Shown here one piece after another: positions 9,001 to 47,584 of a DNA stretch of 64,000 nt. The stretch is from assembly GCF_009730915.1 (NCBI RefSeq), contig NC_052477.1, forward strand, positions 28,902,420 to 28,966,419, in the 5' to 3' direction. Positions within the stretch are counted from its first letter, which is position 1. Every line of letters begins with the position of its first letter. Under the pieces are notes generated by a model. That model had not been told where the DNA came from and did not search any database. It saw only the letters and a list, made by a program, of their open reading frames with translations. This DNA comes from Dioscorea cayenensis subsp. rotundata (Eukaryota > Streptophyta > Magnoliopsida > Dioscoreales > Dioscoreaceae). A program made the translations under genes and the position numbers.

Positions 9001-9180
9001 ATGTATATATACAATTAGAAAGTATAATTTGCATAAAAACCCATTTTGCGAAACGGTGGGCTGAGGGCAATCGCGTCCGAATGATAATTAATTTATATAT
9101 ATAATTCAAAAGTATAATTTATTAGCATAAAAAACTCATTTTTTTTGCGGAACGGTGGGCCGAGGGCAATTGCGTCCAAA
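9001..9180. repeat. Imperfect tandem duplication, two ~90-95 bp units
   Basis: Two adjacent copies share AAAGTATAATTT, GCATAAAAA, CCCATTTT-like and AACGGTGGGC-GAGGGCAAT, and both end in GCGTCC-AA. A third partial echo (GAGGGCAATTGC) follows at about 9242. The units differ by substitutions and small indels. Confidence 0.75.
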
Positions 9181-9284
9181 TAATAATAATAATAATAATA
9201 ATAATTAAATTCAAGGAGGTTTTCGAAATATCATGAGAACTGAGGGCAATTGCCGTAGCGGGGGAGGCTTGATGCTCTCGCCAT

Positions 9285-9337: not shown

Positions 9338-9672
9338 ATAAATACCACAAATACCCGTCAACGTTTGACAGACTTGCTTACTAACAAGTCATGTTTGGTA
9401 TTATTTTTTTTTGAAATGTTCCTAAAATTTACCCTCGAACTTGCGTTAAATGGCTGATTTGTTAAGTTTTAGCTTGCATGAAGTCCGAGGGCATTTAAGT
9501 CATTTTAAATGAAATCGATGGATCAGCTGTTCGTTTGTGGATCAACGGTTGTGATCAAGATGGGACCCACATTGAATTTTTTTTTTCTTTTTCTAATTAT
9601 TCACCAGTTTTTATTTATAATAATTTTTTAAAAAAATATTTCTGCCTATTTTAGTGGTACCAATGAAAGCCA

Positions 9673-10198
9673 ATATAAGATCCACAATATTTTTATTTTT
9701 TTATTTATTCATTTATTTTTGTTTGGTGAAAATTCACATGATGTGGTTGGGGATATATATATATATATATATATGCTAGGAAATAGGCATAATTAACTTT
9801 TGAAAATATTAAAGAAGAAAAAGTAATTTGAAATTTAAATTAATCGAAAATAAGATTCATAATATTTTTTTTTTATTTATTTATTTTTGTTTGGTGAGAT
9901 GATTCGCATGTTGTGGTTGGAGGTCTATATATATTTATGTTAGGAAATAGATATAACCAACTTTTGAAAATATTAAATAAGAAAAAGTAATTTAAAATAT
10001 AAATTAATAGAAAATAAGATTCATAATATTTTTATTTATTTATTTATTTATTGTTTGGTGAGACCGTGAGAAGATTCGCATGTTGTGGTTGGGTTTATAT
10101 ATATATATATATATATATATGCTAGGAAATAGGCATACTCAAACTTTTGAAAATACTAAAAAGGAAAAAAGAAATTTGAAATTTAAATTAAAAGAATA
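9673..10198. repeat. Tandem repeat, about three copies of a 164-177 bp unit
   Basis: Anchor ATAAGATYCA-AATATTT recurs at 9673, 9850 and 10014. Each unit then has T/A-rich TTATTTA runs, GTTTGGTGA, TTGTGGTTGG or GATGTGGTTGG, an AT microsatellite of different length, ATGCTAGGAAATAGGCATA-like text, and ACTTTTGAAAATA. The copies differ by point changes and by AT-run length. No coding content is seen. Confidence 0.85.
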
Positions 10199-31803: not shown

Positions 31804-32021
31804 GTGTAGATGTTTTTTTTTTGTTTGAGAAAGGCGACAAGTGCCGGAACTCAGGGACGAACACATGAGAGAGCAACACTCACCACCGAACCATGCCTCA
31901 CCTTGTGCGAGATGGGGATCGAACTCGAGAAGCCATGCTCGGCACTCGAGGCAAACAACCTACACGAGGGATCCGATGCCAATAGACCAAATGGTCATTG
32001 GGCTCGTGTGTAGATGTTTTT
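31804..32021 (-). mobile_element. tRNA-derived SINE with 14-bp target-site duplication
   Basis: GTGTAGATGTTTTT occurs at 31804-31817 and again at 32008-32021. The insert between them, read on the minus strand, has an A-box-like TGGTCTATTGG (31989-31979), a good B box AGTTCGATCCC (31925-31915) and an A-rich 3' tail beside the first duplication. This is the standard layout of a SINE moved by a LINE-type reverse transcriptase. The body is about 190 bp and is GC-richer than its surroundings. The A-to-B spacing (about 64 nt) is wider than in a tRNA. Near-identical duplications suggest a fairly recent insertion. The SINE family was not identified. Confidence 0.8.
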
Positions 32022-33070
32022 AACAACACTTATGGCATTTGTCAACAAATAATAAATAAATAAAATGGATCATATTGAATATCATTGGATAATGTTGCAA
32101 GAACCAAGGAAAAAAAAGTAAAAAAACCACACAAACCAAGAAACTATGAATATTCCCCCCTATTCTTCTTCTAATTTTCTCCTTAGCGTTTTGTTGCTGG
32201 TTTCTAGTTCTTCTTCTAGATTCTTCAAAGTTCAAATTACTTAGTGGAGTTGTGAGTCTACAAATCATATATAGTACAGTATATTGGTTGAGTAGCTATC
32301 AAAAAAGATTATGAATAGAAGTGAGGAAAGGCCATATCTGGGACTGGTGTGTATGCTTAATAGTATACTAGCTCTGATGTTCTCATCATGGGGCCAATTT
32401 GGACCAAAATGAGTCAAAGAAATAAGATTGATTCTACTTCTACGTTTCATATTTGGTATACTTCCAATCATCTTTTAAGAATAAAAAAGTGACAAGATAA
32501 GAGCAGAAAAAAAAAAAAGAGTAGCATTGACAATTGAGTGGAGGAGGTGACAATGCTTTTAGAACAAATTGCTTTGATTGGTACACATTTATTTGTTTTC
32601 TTTTTGAGTGGTGTTAAGTCATGGTCTCATCAAACTCATCAATAGACTACTCATTCACTAATGATTGTTTGCTGTTTGATATTTTTTCCCCCATGCTAAT
32701 CCTAATTTAAACTTGAAATGAATTATGCATCCAAATCAAAAACTCTGTTTTCTTGTCAGCACTGATGAAGGGTAACAAAGCATTAAACATGCCATACCTG
32801 ATTGATGTGCACTTCCTCTGCAGATATCATTCTTTTCATCTGTGAAATTTTGGATGAAATCCAAATTGTAATGCTTTCAGTGATTCCATACACCTGATTG
32901 TAGCATGTAGGAATTTCAGCATTTCTCATCCTAATGAGTTCCTACCTTGTATAGAAAACCATTAGAAGTTGAGTATACTTCTTCTGACATATCATAAATC
33001 AGACAATTAGTTATCTTACTCATGAAAATTATTATTTAATAAAGAGTAGTGATCAGCAGGCACTTTAGAT
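32022..33070. other. Intergenic sequence right of the SINE
   Basis: No gene, repeat or RNA could be recognised in this AT-rich kilobase. It contains only short frames without protein character. Confidence 0.45.
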
Positions 33071-33071
33071 G

Positions 33072-33660
33072 TAGTGCCTCATGTTTGCAGCCCATTACTG
33101 TATATAAAGCAGCCCATTACAGTAGTTTTATGGCTAGTGCTATAGTTCTATTACTATAGAGGGTTCTTGTACATTGAAAAGAGTTACTTCATCTCATAAA
33201 GCTTCAAAGTTGAGATTTTCATAGATAAAGATTGAGGGGTTTAGAGGATCAAGATTATACGAGTAAAGAGGATGCACGAGGATGGAAGAAGGGGAAGGCT
33301 AAGAAATTAATGAGAGACTTGTAGAAGAAATTGAAAAAAGATTGGAGAACCTCAAAACTCAAAAGTGAGTGGGCTGTCATTTAATTTGGCTCTATTTCTT
33401 TGAATATTATTTGATTTTATTTGCTCTTTAAACCCCTTTTGAGTGAATTTTATGCTATTGGATTGAACAATGATGTCTCTATACCTTTATAATCTTTATC
33501 CTCTAAAGCTCCAAGCCTTGTCTGTGAAATTTTCAAAGTTCAGAAGCTTTCTGATATTAAGTAACTCTCAGTAACCATCTACAGTAATAGCATTCCAGCA
33601 GATGCCATAAAACTACACTAATGGACTGCAACATATATAGTAATAGACTACAAGTATAAG
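33072..33660. repeat. Large imperfect inverted repeat (fold-back element), arms about 170-180 bp
   Basis: The left arm (about 33072-33252) reads GCAGCCCATTACAGTAG, TTTTATGG, TTCTATTACTATAGA, GAGTTACTT, AAAGCTTC and TTTAGAGGAT. The right arm (about 33487-33660) carries the same words in reverse complement and in mirrored order. The loop of about 230 bp is purine-rich and non-coding. Arm identity is roughly 70-75 percent by eye. It may be a fold-back DNA transposon. Terminal duplications were not resolved. Confidence 0.7.
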
Positions 33661-33679
33661 TCACAGCATTAGATTAATT

Positions 33680-34458
33680 TGCTATTAAGAGCATTTAACA
33701 GCAATATCTTGGCTTGACAACGACAACGTAGGAGTTTGGGGGTGTTTTAAGTTGGCATGTTAGCCAATTGCTAATATCCATCGCTTCTAATTGTAAACCG
33801 TCTATAACGAATTATAAGAGGGGAAGAGGAGTTTGTTACTTTTGCTAACAAAAAATTGTAAGAGAGTTGAGTGAAGTTTAGTAACTTTGACAAGTTATAC
33901 AAAGTGAAAAAAAAATTAACAAATTCTAACGAGTTTAAGAGTTGTTTTGAGAGTGTTTTGATAGAACTGTATGTTATTTATTTTGAGCCAAAAATATTTT
34001 TGAGCTGCACCAACATCTTCACCTGTCTGCCACCAGGGCATGATACTAGATGTGCAGTGGAAGCATGATGGGCTCATAACCCATAGGTCTCAGAATCAAA
34101 ACTTGGCTATGATACTTAGATGTTAGTGCAGTTCAAAAATATTTTTTATTAAAAAAAAAATAAAACACAATTATATTAAACACTCTCAAAACAATTCTCA
34201 ACCTTATTAAAGTTTGTTAATTTTTTTCATCTTATCATCAGCCAAAGTTACTAGACTTCACTCAACTCACTTAAAATTTTTTGTTAGCAAAAATGATGAA
34301 GTCCTCTTGCCTATTTATAATGTGTTATAGGTGGTTCACAATCAAAGGCTGTGGACATGAGCAAATTAGCTAAGTCACTTGCCAACTAAGAAATCTCAAT
34401 CTCCAATCTCCTTTTTGTTGTCAAGACAAGATATTGCTATTTAATACTCTTAATAGTA
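33680..34458. mobile_element. Fossil: inverted pair of LTR-like repeats around an initiator-tRNA-Met-like core
   Basis: Left repeat 33680-34015 (336 bp, TG...CA ends) and right repeat 34121-34458 (338 bp) are inverted copies of each other with about 75 percent identity. Between them, 34043-34115 matches plant initiator tRNA-Met along its full length on the plus strand. Read on the minus strand, the right repeat ends in CA and is followed within a few bases by a sequence complementary to the tRNA 3' end, as in an LTR retrotransposon primer-binding site. The element has no gag or pol, is short, broken and old, and belongs to the LTR/TRIM kin. TAATT flanks the left end, and another copy lies 3 bases beyond the right end, a possible target duplication. 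Confidence 0.65.
34043..34115 (+). other. Initiator tRNA-Met-like sequence inside the LTR-like fossil
   Basis: The stretch aligns along its whole length with remembered plant tRNA-iMet, including the anticodon-loop text GGGCTCATAACCCA and the T-arm region. It is diverged, largely by transitions, so it is treated as an inert part of the fossil and not as a working tRNA gene. Confidence 0.6.
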
Positions 34459-34805
34459 AAGTAATTTGAAGTACTAACTAGTCACTACTTTATTAAGTAA
34501 ACTTCATAAGTAAAAAAACTAATTCTCTGATTTATACTAAATTAAACAAAGCTTACTCAACTTCTAACAAAAACCTGTAATAAAACTAAGAAATTGGGCT
34601 CTCAATATAATGTATGCCATCAGCGTATAATATAAACTTTGCACTACCTGAACACTTAAAAAAGGCAAGGAGTCCGACTTCAGTTGCATCTCATTTACAT
34701 ATGAAGTGCGCTTCTCATCCATCTTGTCAACTCCAAATGCCAATTCCTTAACAAGAGACAGAAACATGAGCATTATCACCAAGAAAAAAAATACCATTAA
34801 CAGAA

Positions 34806-34830
34806 TATATATATATATATATATATATAG
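34806..34830. repeat. (AT)n microsatellite
   Basis: AT dinucleotide run, seen directly, within the uncertain minus-strand locus. Confidence 0.85.
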
Positions 34831-35802
34831 CACGCAAATTTCCTTGTACATCAGAGGAAGGATCTGCAGGAGGTGTCTTAGGTGTTCTCCAAATGCATTC
34901 TTCTTAACGCTCTTCACATCTTTCAATAGTTTCTACAATACCATTGCCTTATGGTTTTGTAGTCTCCAATGAAAGCCAGAATTGGTTGAGATCCAAAGGC
35001 CATGAAAATTCCTTGATTCCTTGATTACCAAAATTTATTATGAATAGCCAACAAAAAATCTTATCAACACCAGATCTGAAATGGCATAAACTCATATTCA
35101 CATTTTAAAAGCTGCCGCTTGATCTATGCTAGTTCCATGCCCTGATTTTTATTCTGGCACCAAGTCATAAGAGCTTGTGTAGGGTGGCTTTGCTCTTTGT
35201 TTATGACAGGATTACTAGCATGCCCATAGAACCAATCCTATAACACAAGTATCACTTAAGGCAAAGAATGTATATAATCAACATAAAAGAAAAGAAATTA
35301 TCCTAATTATAAATTATAAACATGCTGTTAAGAAAAGTACACATCCACTCATATACTCTTGCATAGAAGTGATTTTTATTTTTCTTTATTGCTTCCAATA
35401 GGAAGTCCAATGTTGAGGATGCCCAATTATAGTATGGCACACAGACAGTATCTTCCACAAGATTTAAGAAATGAGAAGTAAGGTTTATAGACCAGTGGAG
35501 GGGACTGGAAAAACAACGAGCACAAGAATGAAGCTTCTTATAAACCATATCCCACCATCAATCTCACATTCAGTATCTCTGACCATAATCTTCAAATCAA
35601 TTCCATCGGATGATACATTGTAACGGTTTACAAGATCAGGGCTCACTTGACAAGAAAAGCTAAATACGATTCTATGTCCTACAGATGGTATTCACAAGAT
35701 GCATGCAATGTCATTTGTGGTAACTTTCAATTCCTCCCATCTAACTGTTGTTGTCCTCTTCATAAAATTGCACCTATCTAAAATACCTAGCACATGGGAC
35801 TT

Positions 35803-35895
35803 TATTAGAAATACTTTCGAGATATGAAGCATGGATCCAAAACTGACTTCATAGACTTTATCATAAATACTTTCGGGATATGAAGCATGGACAGC
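35803..35895. repeat. Direct duplication of about 45-50 bp
   Basis: TTTAT-A-AAATACTTTCG-GATATGAAGCATGGA occurs twice in tandem, about 55 bp apart, with few differences. It lies inside the putative frame of the unidentified locus, which argues that the frame is not under strong constraint. Confidence 0.75.
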
Positions 35896-37055
35896 CACTC
35901 TTTGCGCTGCAGTGAACTTAGTCACCCATATGTGGATGCATGATGACCCAAACCTTGTTTTCCCATTTTCTAACCCCATGTTTCCTAAAAATTGAAAATA
36001 GAGTTGATCAGAGGGGCACCCCAAAAATGTTAACTCGTTTAAACTTCAATGGGGCTATGAAATACTCATTTAGTTCACAATACATGCTCAGAAAATCCTA
36101 GAACAAGTAAAAATAAGATAAACATACTGGATGGAACAAGAAGAAATTAGCAAACGAAAGATAAAAGGAAACAAATACAACACCAAGGTAGAAACAAGAA
36201 CAGCCTATAACACATAATATTCTACACCCAAGCCTTCCATAAGGAATTTGCAGCAATCCTCTAACACCTATACTCATGAATAATATAAAATTGACCCCGT
36301 TCTTGAAAATTGGCTTTCAAACCTCTTATTCTAGATATGTAGAATTATCGTCACCCTGATTAAGCCAAGACAAGTTCACAAGGATTTCAATTATTGGAAG
36401 AACAGAATGAAAATAATCGATTAAATCATCATTCTAGAACTACCGAGCTTCAAAATATGCTTACTCTTTCCAAAGAAGCATGTTTGAGTTCTTCCAAACT
36501 CACAGTTCAAATATCAAAGAACATTTTAACAACATGTTTATATGAAGCATATCTCCACATTCCACAAGCTTTTTATTTAAAAAAAGGATTTTTCCTTCAC
36601 AAAAGAAAAAGGCATGTTGCTCTCTAATTGCCAAATTGAAAACTCAGCTCTTAGCAATAGCATTTACATTTCTACTTCCAATACTTTCATGTAATCATGG
36701 CAATTCAAGCTGTTCCTGTTCAATTTTAAAATCATGAATCAAGTTCCTTCTTCCAATGTAGAACAACATTCATGAAACCATATCCAATTCAAGACATTTG
36801 AAGCATCAAAATGAAAAAAAAAAACAATTTTTTTTTAAAAAAAAAAAGGAAAATCACCTCTGAGCGATGAAGCCTAGCAATTCCTCCAGGCTCCAGAGAA
36901 GGAAGGGGACTCGGAGCTTGTCCTAGCGCTGTTTGTTGTTCATCCCTCCATAGCTAGCTTGAGGAGAACGAATTGGGGCGCCATCGCTACGGCAATTGAG
37001 AAAGGGCACAAAGAACTATAGCGATGAGCCCTAAATCCGCGAATTCATTCATTGA

Positions 37056-45420: not shown

Positions 45421-47584
45421 TCATTGGCGAGCAGGAGGTGCACTTGCAGTGACACCTGGGCGAGGCCCTTGTCCAGGTCTAGGTGCGTCATCCTGCACAG
45501 CACAGCATGGTGAAAACAGTCAATAAGAAAAATACTGCCTATTAAAAGACTGAGTTAAAAGTGAGGATCAAAATATATGCAAACATATTATCTTTTTGTT
45601 GATTTTCAAATACTTTCAGCAAAAAACCACTGAATAAATGGTAACTTCTCATATTATAATTAGAACGATTCACTTCATAAAAAGCTCGAGAATAAGTTTT
45701 TTATGCTAAGCAATATTCTAACAAATTTACGTGCCTCTTATGATGCAGAATGAGCTTTCAATATTAATCACTTTAACAAATTTACTTTCCAATAAATTAG
45801 TTATTTTTTTACCCTTTCTTGGGGACCTAGTTTGAAGGAAATCATGTGTAAAAAGATTATGAGAATATTAACTACTCTCGATAAAAAAACTAAAAGTTCA
45901 GTCAGGACAATTGAGATTTCACAGAATAGAAATACCACAGCAATAAAAGATAAATATTAATTTTATTAAAGGTTAAAGTGAAAGCACAAACTTGACAAAG
46001 ATTTAAACAGTATAATTCTGATAGATAACATACGGATGAGGTAGGTGCATTTTCATAGTTCTGAGCATGTTCCATCATATTAATAATCAGCTAAAAGTAA
46101 AGATGATTAGCTGACAAATTGAAACATATGATGGCTACATGTAAGGGACGAGTTCATCCCACATGGCACAAAAAGAAAGCCACTGGGGCAGACGTAAGGT
46201 CCCAATAAGTTAAGTCCTCTCTTCCTAACGAGCAAGATTTACAAGATGGGATCTGAACAACTTTAAATTTACTTTAACAAATATTCTAATGCCTTAGCAT
46301 ATATGAGAATCAAGAATATCATTGGATAGAATAATAAATACCATACATCCACAGAATGGTTCCCGGTTTAAAGCTATAAGGATACCAAGTGATATTACAC
46401 ATCAATTTGCATCTTAGCACCTAAATTAGTACAGCTTGAGTTAAAAAAAATTAACTTAATAGGTGGGATGTGAATGAAATCCATAGTTAAAGAATCCGTA
46501 ATTAACCCAAAATAAGAAATACACAAATGATATCATTGACACACATGCCAAAATTATATAATAGTGACCTAATGAGAAAAATAACAGTAACAATGTGCTT
46601 CATATAGTCAACCTAATAAATCATGATTTAATTTTAATTTCTTCGCTAAAGCATATACAAGCTTAAACAAGGGGCTAAGTAGGTACTAATAACTGTTTAA
46701 CCTCTTAACAACCAATAGCTTATCATAAATCACACTTGGTTTAATTAGCCAATGCAAAATTGTGGACATTGTTGTCACTTATGTACTAGGGAAAGCAAGA
46801 AAAAAAGAACAATGACAACTTTCATACACCCTAACAATTCTCATAACCAAAAGAAACGGATTAAAACTACATCTGATCAATTTTAGTAACCAATTCATAT
46901 CATTCAACAAACATAGCATTGTAAAAAATCAAGCATGTAATCCAAGAATGTGAATTTGTTCATACCCTGCGCCTGAAGCGCTGTGGAGGCTCACGGTTCC
47001 TCCTATCAGTGCGAGACCTAACCCTAACCACATGAGAGTGAATCGCGCAAGAAACACAGTACTGCATCTTGGCATACAGCTTCGGAAGAGTATAACCTAG
47101 CCAATAATGCTAATCAACAAAACCCTTCAAAAAGAGAATACCAAAACCAAAATCACAGCAAAAGCAACTAAAAATCAGAGATAAATCCATCCAAAAACAA
47201 TACCATCATAAACACAGGCTTCCTGCACATCCCTAACTGCAGCTTGCTCAACGATATTCCTCACCAAAAATCTCTTGATCGCCTTGTCCTTCAACATACC
47301 AAAAAAAACATCAAATGATCTCTCAGATCTGAGGTTTTCCTTTGTATATATGTTTGTATGATTGCGAATCGAACCTTAGGGCAGCACTTGCCGCAGTTGG
47401 AGCAGCGGATGAAGTTGACATGGCCGCGGCCGTGCTTGTTACGACCGCCATTCCTGCGCTTGAACGTCTGCACGACGGACAAACAAACAAACATGGAGAT
47501 CAGAGATCGGCATTAATGGAAAACGAAGAAGGAGTAGAGAAGTCGAGCAAAAGGAAGAGCTAGGGTTTCAAGCGCTCTCACCAT
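45421..47584 (-). CDS. RPS26: Small ribosomal subunit protein eS26
   Basis: Five exons (minus): 47584-47582 (the ATG alone), 47467-47375, 47288-47204, 47096-46966, 45492-45421, joined in phase to 127 aa. eS26 sits at the mRNA exit channel of the 40S subunit and binds zinc. The sequence opens [20 protein letters not shown] and has the Cys cluster [18 protein letters not shown], then [37 protein letters not shown] and the basic [16 protein letters not shown]. The tail [13 protein letters not shown] is typical of plants. Splitting the start codon off as its own exon is common in plant ribosomal protein genes. Intron 4 is unusually long (about 1.47 kb). Confidence 0.96.

Follow-up and report, generated by a model that had tools for sequence, protein, structure and literature searches.

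Head-to-head LTRs around most of an initiator tRNA-Met in plant DNA: a probable fossil of aberrant reverse transcription

Background

How could most of a primer tRNA come to lie in genomic DNA between two LTR-like repeats that face each other? The question is raised by a locus in a 64-kb stretch of DNA that was analysed as a whole (the window). An earlier note on this DNA had described it as two facing repeats of ~337 bp enclosing a full-length initiator tRNA-Met (tRNA-iMet), and had proposed copying through the primer tRNA or a later rearrangement as its source.

The window is plant nuclear DNA with a GC content of 0.28-0.49 (2-kb bins). Nineteen ORFs were listed in it, and the six that were scanned for domains matched a NAF-domain kinase (best PDB match, CBL-interacting kinase 23), a K+ transporter, a MATE transporter, URO-D, Fe/Mn-SOD and a permease. 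Rfam placed a snoR99 H/ACA small nucleolar RNA on the minus strand at 46065-46169, where its score of 66.6 bits exceeded the gathering score of 41. Apart from this distant match and that of the tRNA core, Rfam returned nothing over the whole window at E values up to 0.1. Short repeats were also observed: an AT-rich unit of ~170 bp in about three tandem copies, 80-82% identical, with TA-repeat stretches (9672-10196), a tandem duplication of ~90 bp with 80% identity (9001-9187), and a direct repeat of 38 nt, 92% identical, 56 bp from start to start (35798-35891).

Results and discussion

Extent and orientation of the LTR pair

The repeats were delimited by BLAST self-comparison and piecewise alignment. 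An inverted self-match at 33673-34465 spanned the core (395 bits, E 2e-111, 72% over 817 columns including gaps); the control, 10 block-shuffles of 32000-36000, gave a best inverted match of 36.5 bits. Further out, the BLAST self-comparison also paired 32962-33052 with 34482-34567 in inverted orientation (61.7 bits), and piecewise alignment showed that this outer pair prolongs the inner one in the same LTRs. Since the outer pair continues the inner one and a third pair is a nested insertion, the LTR is about 450 bp long rather than 337 bp; only ~337 bp had been noticed earlier because a 596-bp inverted-repeat insertion splits the left LTR. The repeats thus do face each other, but their length of 337 bp did not hold, the right LTR measuring 449 bp and the left one being interrupted. 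The TG/CA ends formerly placed at 33680 and 34458 are both internal, and the true outer ends are TG on the right and CA on the left. The corrected element occupies 32960-34569, with head-to-head LTRs whose U3 ends point outward, that is, inverted and not direct as in LTR retrotransposon insertions. Its parts and flanks are as follows.

32955-32959, no strand: left target-site duplication AAAAC, identical to the right-hand 5 bp
32960-34015, plus strand: whole left LTR, carrying the nested 596-bp insertion
32960-33070, plus strand: outer (U3) piece of the left LTR, aligned to the right LTR; its start, CATTAGAAG, corresponds to TGTTAGAAG in the right copy
33071-33666, no strand: nested inverted-repeat (MITE-like) insertion of 596 bp, from self-comparison and piecewise alignment
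33667-34015, plus strand: inner piece of the left LTR, ending in CACCAACA; the 8 bp at its start are taken for the insertion's second duplication copy
34016-34018, plus strand: TCT after the left LTR, matching the spacer between U5 and PBS at the right LTR, read on that LTR's strand; 3 nt only
34019-34051, plus strand: filler of 33 nt, including the 9 positions where tRNA nucleotides 1-9 would fall
34052-34117, plus strand: copy of tRNA-iMet positions 10-75, 53/66 identical, its 3' end being the PBS, now decayed, that belongs to the minus-strand LTR
34118-34120, minus strand: 3-nt spacer, TCT, between the right LTR and the PBS
34121-34569, minus strand: right LTR, 449 bp, TGTTAG...CTAACA on that strand
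34570-34574, no strand: right target-site duplication AAAAC, identical to the left-hand 5 bp

The nested insertion lies wholly inside the left arm and has arms of its own at 33074-33270 and 33477-33664 (~190 bp, 72% identical). It starts with GTAGTGCCTC on the left and its right end reads CTGTGACTTATAC in reverse complement; an imperfect 8-bp duplication (CTTTAGAT and CATTAGAT, 7/8) flanks it, ends and duplication being read off the alignment.

The LTR-like ends described earlier were confirmed for the right copy, which is bounded by TG...CA and whose termini form a 6-bp inverted repeat. Within this copy TATAAA occurs at LTR positions 34 and 251, AATAAA at 76 and 420. The left LTR starts with CATTAG and ends with CCAACA, so that its TG...CA boundary has CA at the outer start, which is taken as decayed; a scan of the left pieces revealed no TATAAA, although TATAA is present twice. 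The two LTRs agree in 338 of the 422 ungapped columns of their aligned pieces (80.1%), with 51 transitions, 33 transversions and 12 gap events (K2P 0.235). If plants accumulate 1.3e-8 to 2.5e-9 substitutions per site per year, this divergence would put the age of the pair, as a rough estimate, at ~9 to 47 million years. No coding capacity was seen in 32960-34569, the longest stop-free stretch in six frames being 68 aa, in agreement with the view of an old, coding-free element. A second copy was not found by BLAST in the 64-kb window, where matches elsewhere consisted of just A/T-rich segments of 24-34 columns.

The earlier note had also placed the locus among TRIM elements. These have short direct LTRs of about 100-250 bp, and the Cassandra PBS, TGGTATCAGAGC, is one that we take to be matched to tRNA-iMet. 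The abstract of PMC6934838 describes TRIM elements with direct LTRs, and TGGTATCAGAGC is given as the PBS of Cassandra in a passage of PMC7215508. The locus resembles TRIM and Cassandra elements in being coding-free; unlike them, it has inverted 449-bp LTRs with a near-complete tRNA between, and the TRIM label was therefore dropped.

Matching outer flanks and a single insertion

The 5 bp outside the two outer ends are the same (AAAAC), and this length falls within the 4-6 bp of LTR retrotransposon target-site duplications. Two random 5-mers of the window agree by chance with a probability of 0.0019, which is modest evidence in AT-rich DNA. The element edges were taken from the alignment before matches were counted, yet after the sequence had been viewed. 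When the edges were shifted by up to 4 bases, AAAAC matched only unshifted or with both edges at +1; the sixth base also agrees (AAAACC on both sides), which leaves one base of doubt about the left edge. The inner LTR flanks, TCTTC and TTAGA, match neither AAAAC. Since the outer flanks match and the inner ones do not, the sequence favours a single insertion of the head-to-head pair over two solo LTRs: one integrase-type event, with U3 ends outward, is the likelier history.

Two independent solo LTRs of one family could also have inserted head-to-head, with a tRNA pseudogene or an old PBS between them, and solo LTRs are common in plants; the 20% divergence of the two LTRs would suit such an origin. 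Each of them should, however, have a duplication of its own, and the flanks differ at either LTR (AAAAC/TCTTC and TTAGA/AAAAC) and agree only outermost, although old duplications can decay. A tRNA 3' end at PBS distance from one LTR would moreover be a coincidence. We regard this origin as improbable.

The same flanks bear on a rearrangement, in which an ordinary element (LTR-PBS-internal-LTR) was reshaped after insertion by inversion and deletion. Palindromes and repeats are prone to rearrangement, and the 33-nt filler, which has no found source, could be a repair scar. On the other hand, a breakpoint would have to sit exactly between LTR and duplication to bring U3 against the right AAAAC, and the tRNA match up to position 10 would be left unexplained. 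The later rearrangement offered as an alternative by the earlier note thus became less likely once the corrected outer ends proved to be flanked by AAAAC on both sides, and we consider it unlikely, if still the best placed of the rival origins.

Identity and extent of the tRNA copy

The core was compared with eight plant tRNA sequences, positions being counted along a 75-nt tRNA-iMet. Initiator tRNA-Met gave a local score of 84 on the plus strand (z=29.5, 1000 shuffles), and the other seven tRNAs gave z between -0.6 and 2.2, so that the comparison proposed with the first description upheld the initiator identity. The best ungapped placement of tRNA-iMet, at 34043-34117, has 57/75 matches, and nowhere else in the window, on either strand, does a placement reach 42. 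The Rfam tRNA model scored 30.1 bits on the core (gathering score 29, E=0.03); ARAGORN, in its bacterial setting, reported no tRNA gene there.

The copy is not clearly complete. Positions 10-75 comprise 53 matches, 11 transitions and 2 transversions, and positions 1-9 comprise 4 matches and 5 transversions. At the downstream rate, at least 5 transversions in 9 positions have P of about 3e-6, for a 9/10 break picked after viewing and an ungapped comparison; at least 4 chance matches in 9 have a probability of 0.17. Positions 1-9 are therefore not clearly tRNA as judged by the sequence, and about 66 of the 75 nt are clear: the claim of a full-length tRNA held for positions 10-75 and failed for positions 1-9. 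With tRNA-iMet as the starting point, each of the 11 transitions in positions 10-75 leads from C to T or from G to A, and 4/4 CG sites are lost, a one-directional decay that would fit methylated, long-silenced DNA. The terminal CCA reads CTT at 34115-34117; because this matches at 1/3 positions, its presence is suggested by the spacing alone.

These features also bear on a foldback or MITE DNA transposon with a captured tRNA gene. Such an element would have long inverted arms, and a MITE-like insertion is indeed nested in the left one. Still, a captured gene should hold tRNA positions 1-9, which are not recognisable here, and their 4/9 matches argue against copying from a tRNA gene (the CCA site is the CTT noted above, 1/3). 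The 5-bp duplication, the TG...CA of the right arm and the PBS spacing fit an LTR, and we give this origin very little credit.

The two junctions

On its own strand, the right LTR leads through TCT into the complement of the tRNA 3' end, the ordinary PBS position, which bears out the minus-strand PBS described before. This PBS adjoins the right LTR only, in the orientation of tRNA-primed minus-strand synthesis; no recognisable PBS follows the left LTR in the tested segment (34016-34052). The TCT common to both LTR ends is just three bases and may be due to chance. A parent element with this LTR would be expected to carry a PBS resembling TCT-TGGTATCAGAGCC.

The filler was considered as degraded tRNA, as anti-tRNA and as a mirror of the right side. 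Comparison of 34016-34052 with each revealed no significant match (p=0.11, 0.71 and 0.83, respectively, 2000 shuffles each), and these sources are unsupported.

Probable origin in aberrant reverse transcription

From the observed anatomy, the matching flanks and the identity and extent of the tRNA copy, we infer read-through by reverse transcriptase, a joining step and the action of integrase. The locus would then be a fossil insertion of an aberrant reverse-transcription product of an LTR retrotransposon, an origin that we hold to be probable, and probably a one-off. Plus-strand strong-stop synthesis would have copied U3-R-U5, passed the usual stop at ~12-18 nt of tRNA and reached about tRNA position 10. 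The LTR-tRNA end would then have met, head-to-head and with the 33-nt filler in between, a second LTR that stopped at the U5/PBS boundary (LTR plus TCT), the two being joined either by a template switch between co-packaged cDNAs or by end-joining of two LTR ends at one target. Integrase would have inserted the resulting U3...U3 molecule, giving the 5-bp duplication. In favour of read-through, the tRNA 3' end meets the right LTR across a 3-nt spacer and the match extends from the PBS to position 10, making copying through the primer tRNA, as first proposed, the likely source.

Evidence on the other side includes the single locus, the filler that matched none of the sources compared, the CA start of the left LTR and the lack of TATAAA in its scanned pieces, and the 1/3 match to CCA. 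Initiator tRNAs carry m1A58 (canonical 58 being, as we count it, position 57 of the 75-nt numbering) and m1G9, the latter at position 9 beside the 9/10 end of the copy. Methyl-blocked bases, m1A58 among them, should hinder read-through. According to passages of PMC7472051, reverse transcriptases that read through 1-methyladenosine commonly misincorporate; the base at canonical 58 in the copy is A, as in the tRNA. Since m1A58 would have been passed first and reads A despite common misincorporation, a stop at 9/10 near m1G9 is only suggestive.

A further possibility, self-priming by snap-back from the tRNA acceptor stem, should have left LTR-TCT-TGGTATCAGAGTGG at the left junction, where the 33-nt filler is found; it is less favoured because of this filler and because a closed hairpin offers one U3 end.

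Apparent integration as a unit would also be expected of a replicating family of inverted-LTR (hairpin) elements with a tRNA-iMet spacer. By standard reasoning on LTR reverse transcription, however, inverted R regions give normal first-strand transfer no direct repeat, and the 64-kb window lacks a second copy. The chance that such a family exists seems slight to us, and a one-off aberrant product is preferred.

Comparison with known systems

DIRS elements have inverted terminal repeats and a tyrosine recombinase, and are not known to have a tRNA PBS or a target duplication. The locus is like them in bearing inverted terminal repeats on a retroelement and differs in its tRNA PBS and target duplication.

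In the model proposed for Ty1/Ty3, as set out in passages of PMC5371799, plus-strand synthesis first yields a strong-stop DNA that includes a copy of 12 nt of the primer tRNA, and this DNA is then displaced. Later strong-stop DNA ends at U5 after tRNA removal, and the tRNA copy is held as not inherited (passages of PMC5371799 and PMC7472051); Ty3 particles accumulate dead-end strong-stop products (PMC5371799). The dead-end strong-stop DNA of this PPT recycling model is, as far as these passages describe it, like the locus in consisting of U3-R-U5 with copied primer tRNA-iMet, but it has 12 nt of tRNA and is unintegrated, whereas about 66 nt are found here, in the genome and head-to-head with a second LTR. 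By this comparison, the right half resembles a strong-stop product of the first kind in which read-through went far, and the left half resembles an LTR that stops at U5/PBS. On a tentative and, on balance, doubtful reading, the dead-end strong-stop pathway, whose products are otherwise not inherited, has left an integrated fossil at this locus. The left LTR would end at the tRNA-cDNA cleavage point and the right one would carry the tRNA copy to about 9/10, both kinds of end predicted for Ty1/Ty3 having been joined and integrated through two U3 ends.

Inverted two-LTR circles arise through autointegration in Ty elements, and a title cited in PMC4751563 refers to a Moloney MLV circle in which a segment is inverted. 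Passages of that paper report junctions without signs of autointegration and one mosaic read consistent with it. Such circles share inverted LTRs as a by-product with the locus; they are extrachromosomal, and a tRNA spacer and target duplication go unmentioned in those passages. Among the matches listed from the open-licence literature, mostly titles and starts of abstracts, none describes inverted LTRs around a near-complete tRNA, which is not proof that there are none. The words 'inverted LTRs' do occur in a Dictyostelium paper (PMC5633606).

Conclusions

With most of the primer tRNA between outward U3 ends, a genomic insertion would preserve a natural trace of a dead end that is considered not to be inherited in Ty1/Ty3 and, if so, two U3 ends would seem enough for paired integration. 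The arrangement of LTR, spacer, tRNA beyond the PBS, inverted LTR and 5-bp duplication provides a signature by which the frequency of such insertions in plant genomes could be determined. The long predicted hairpin of the locus could feed small-RNA silencing. If the reading as a dead-end fossil is true, plant genomes may contain an unrecognised class of U3-U3 insertions bridged by a tRNA.
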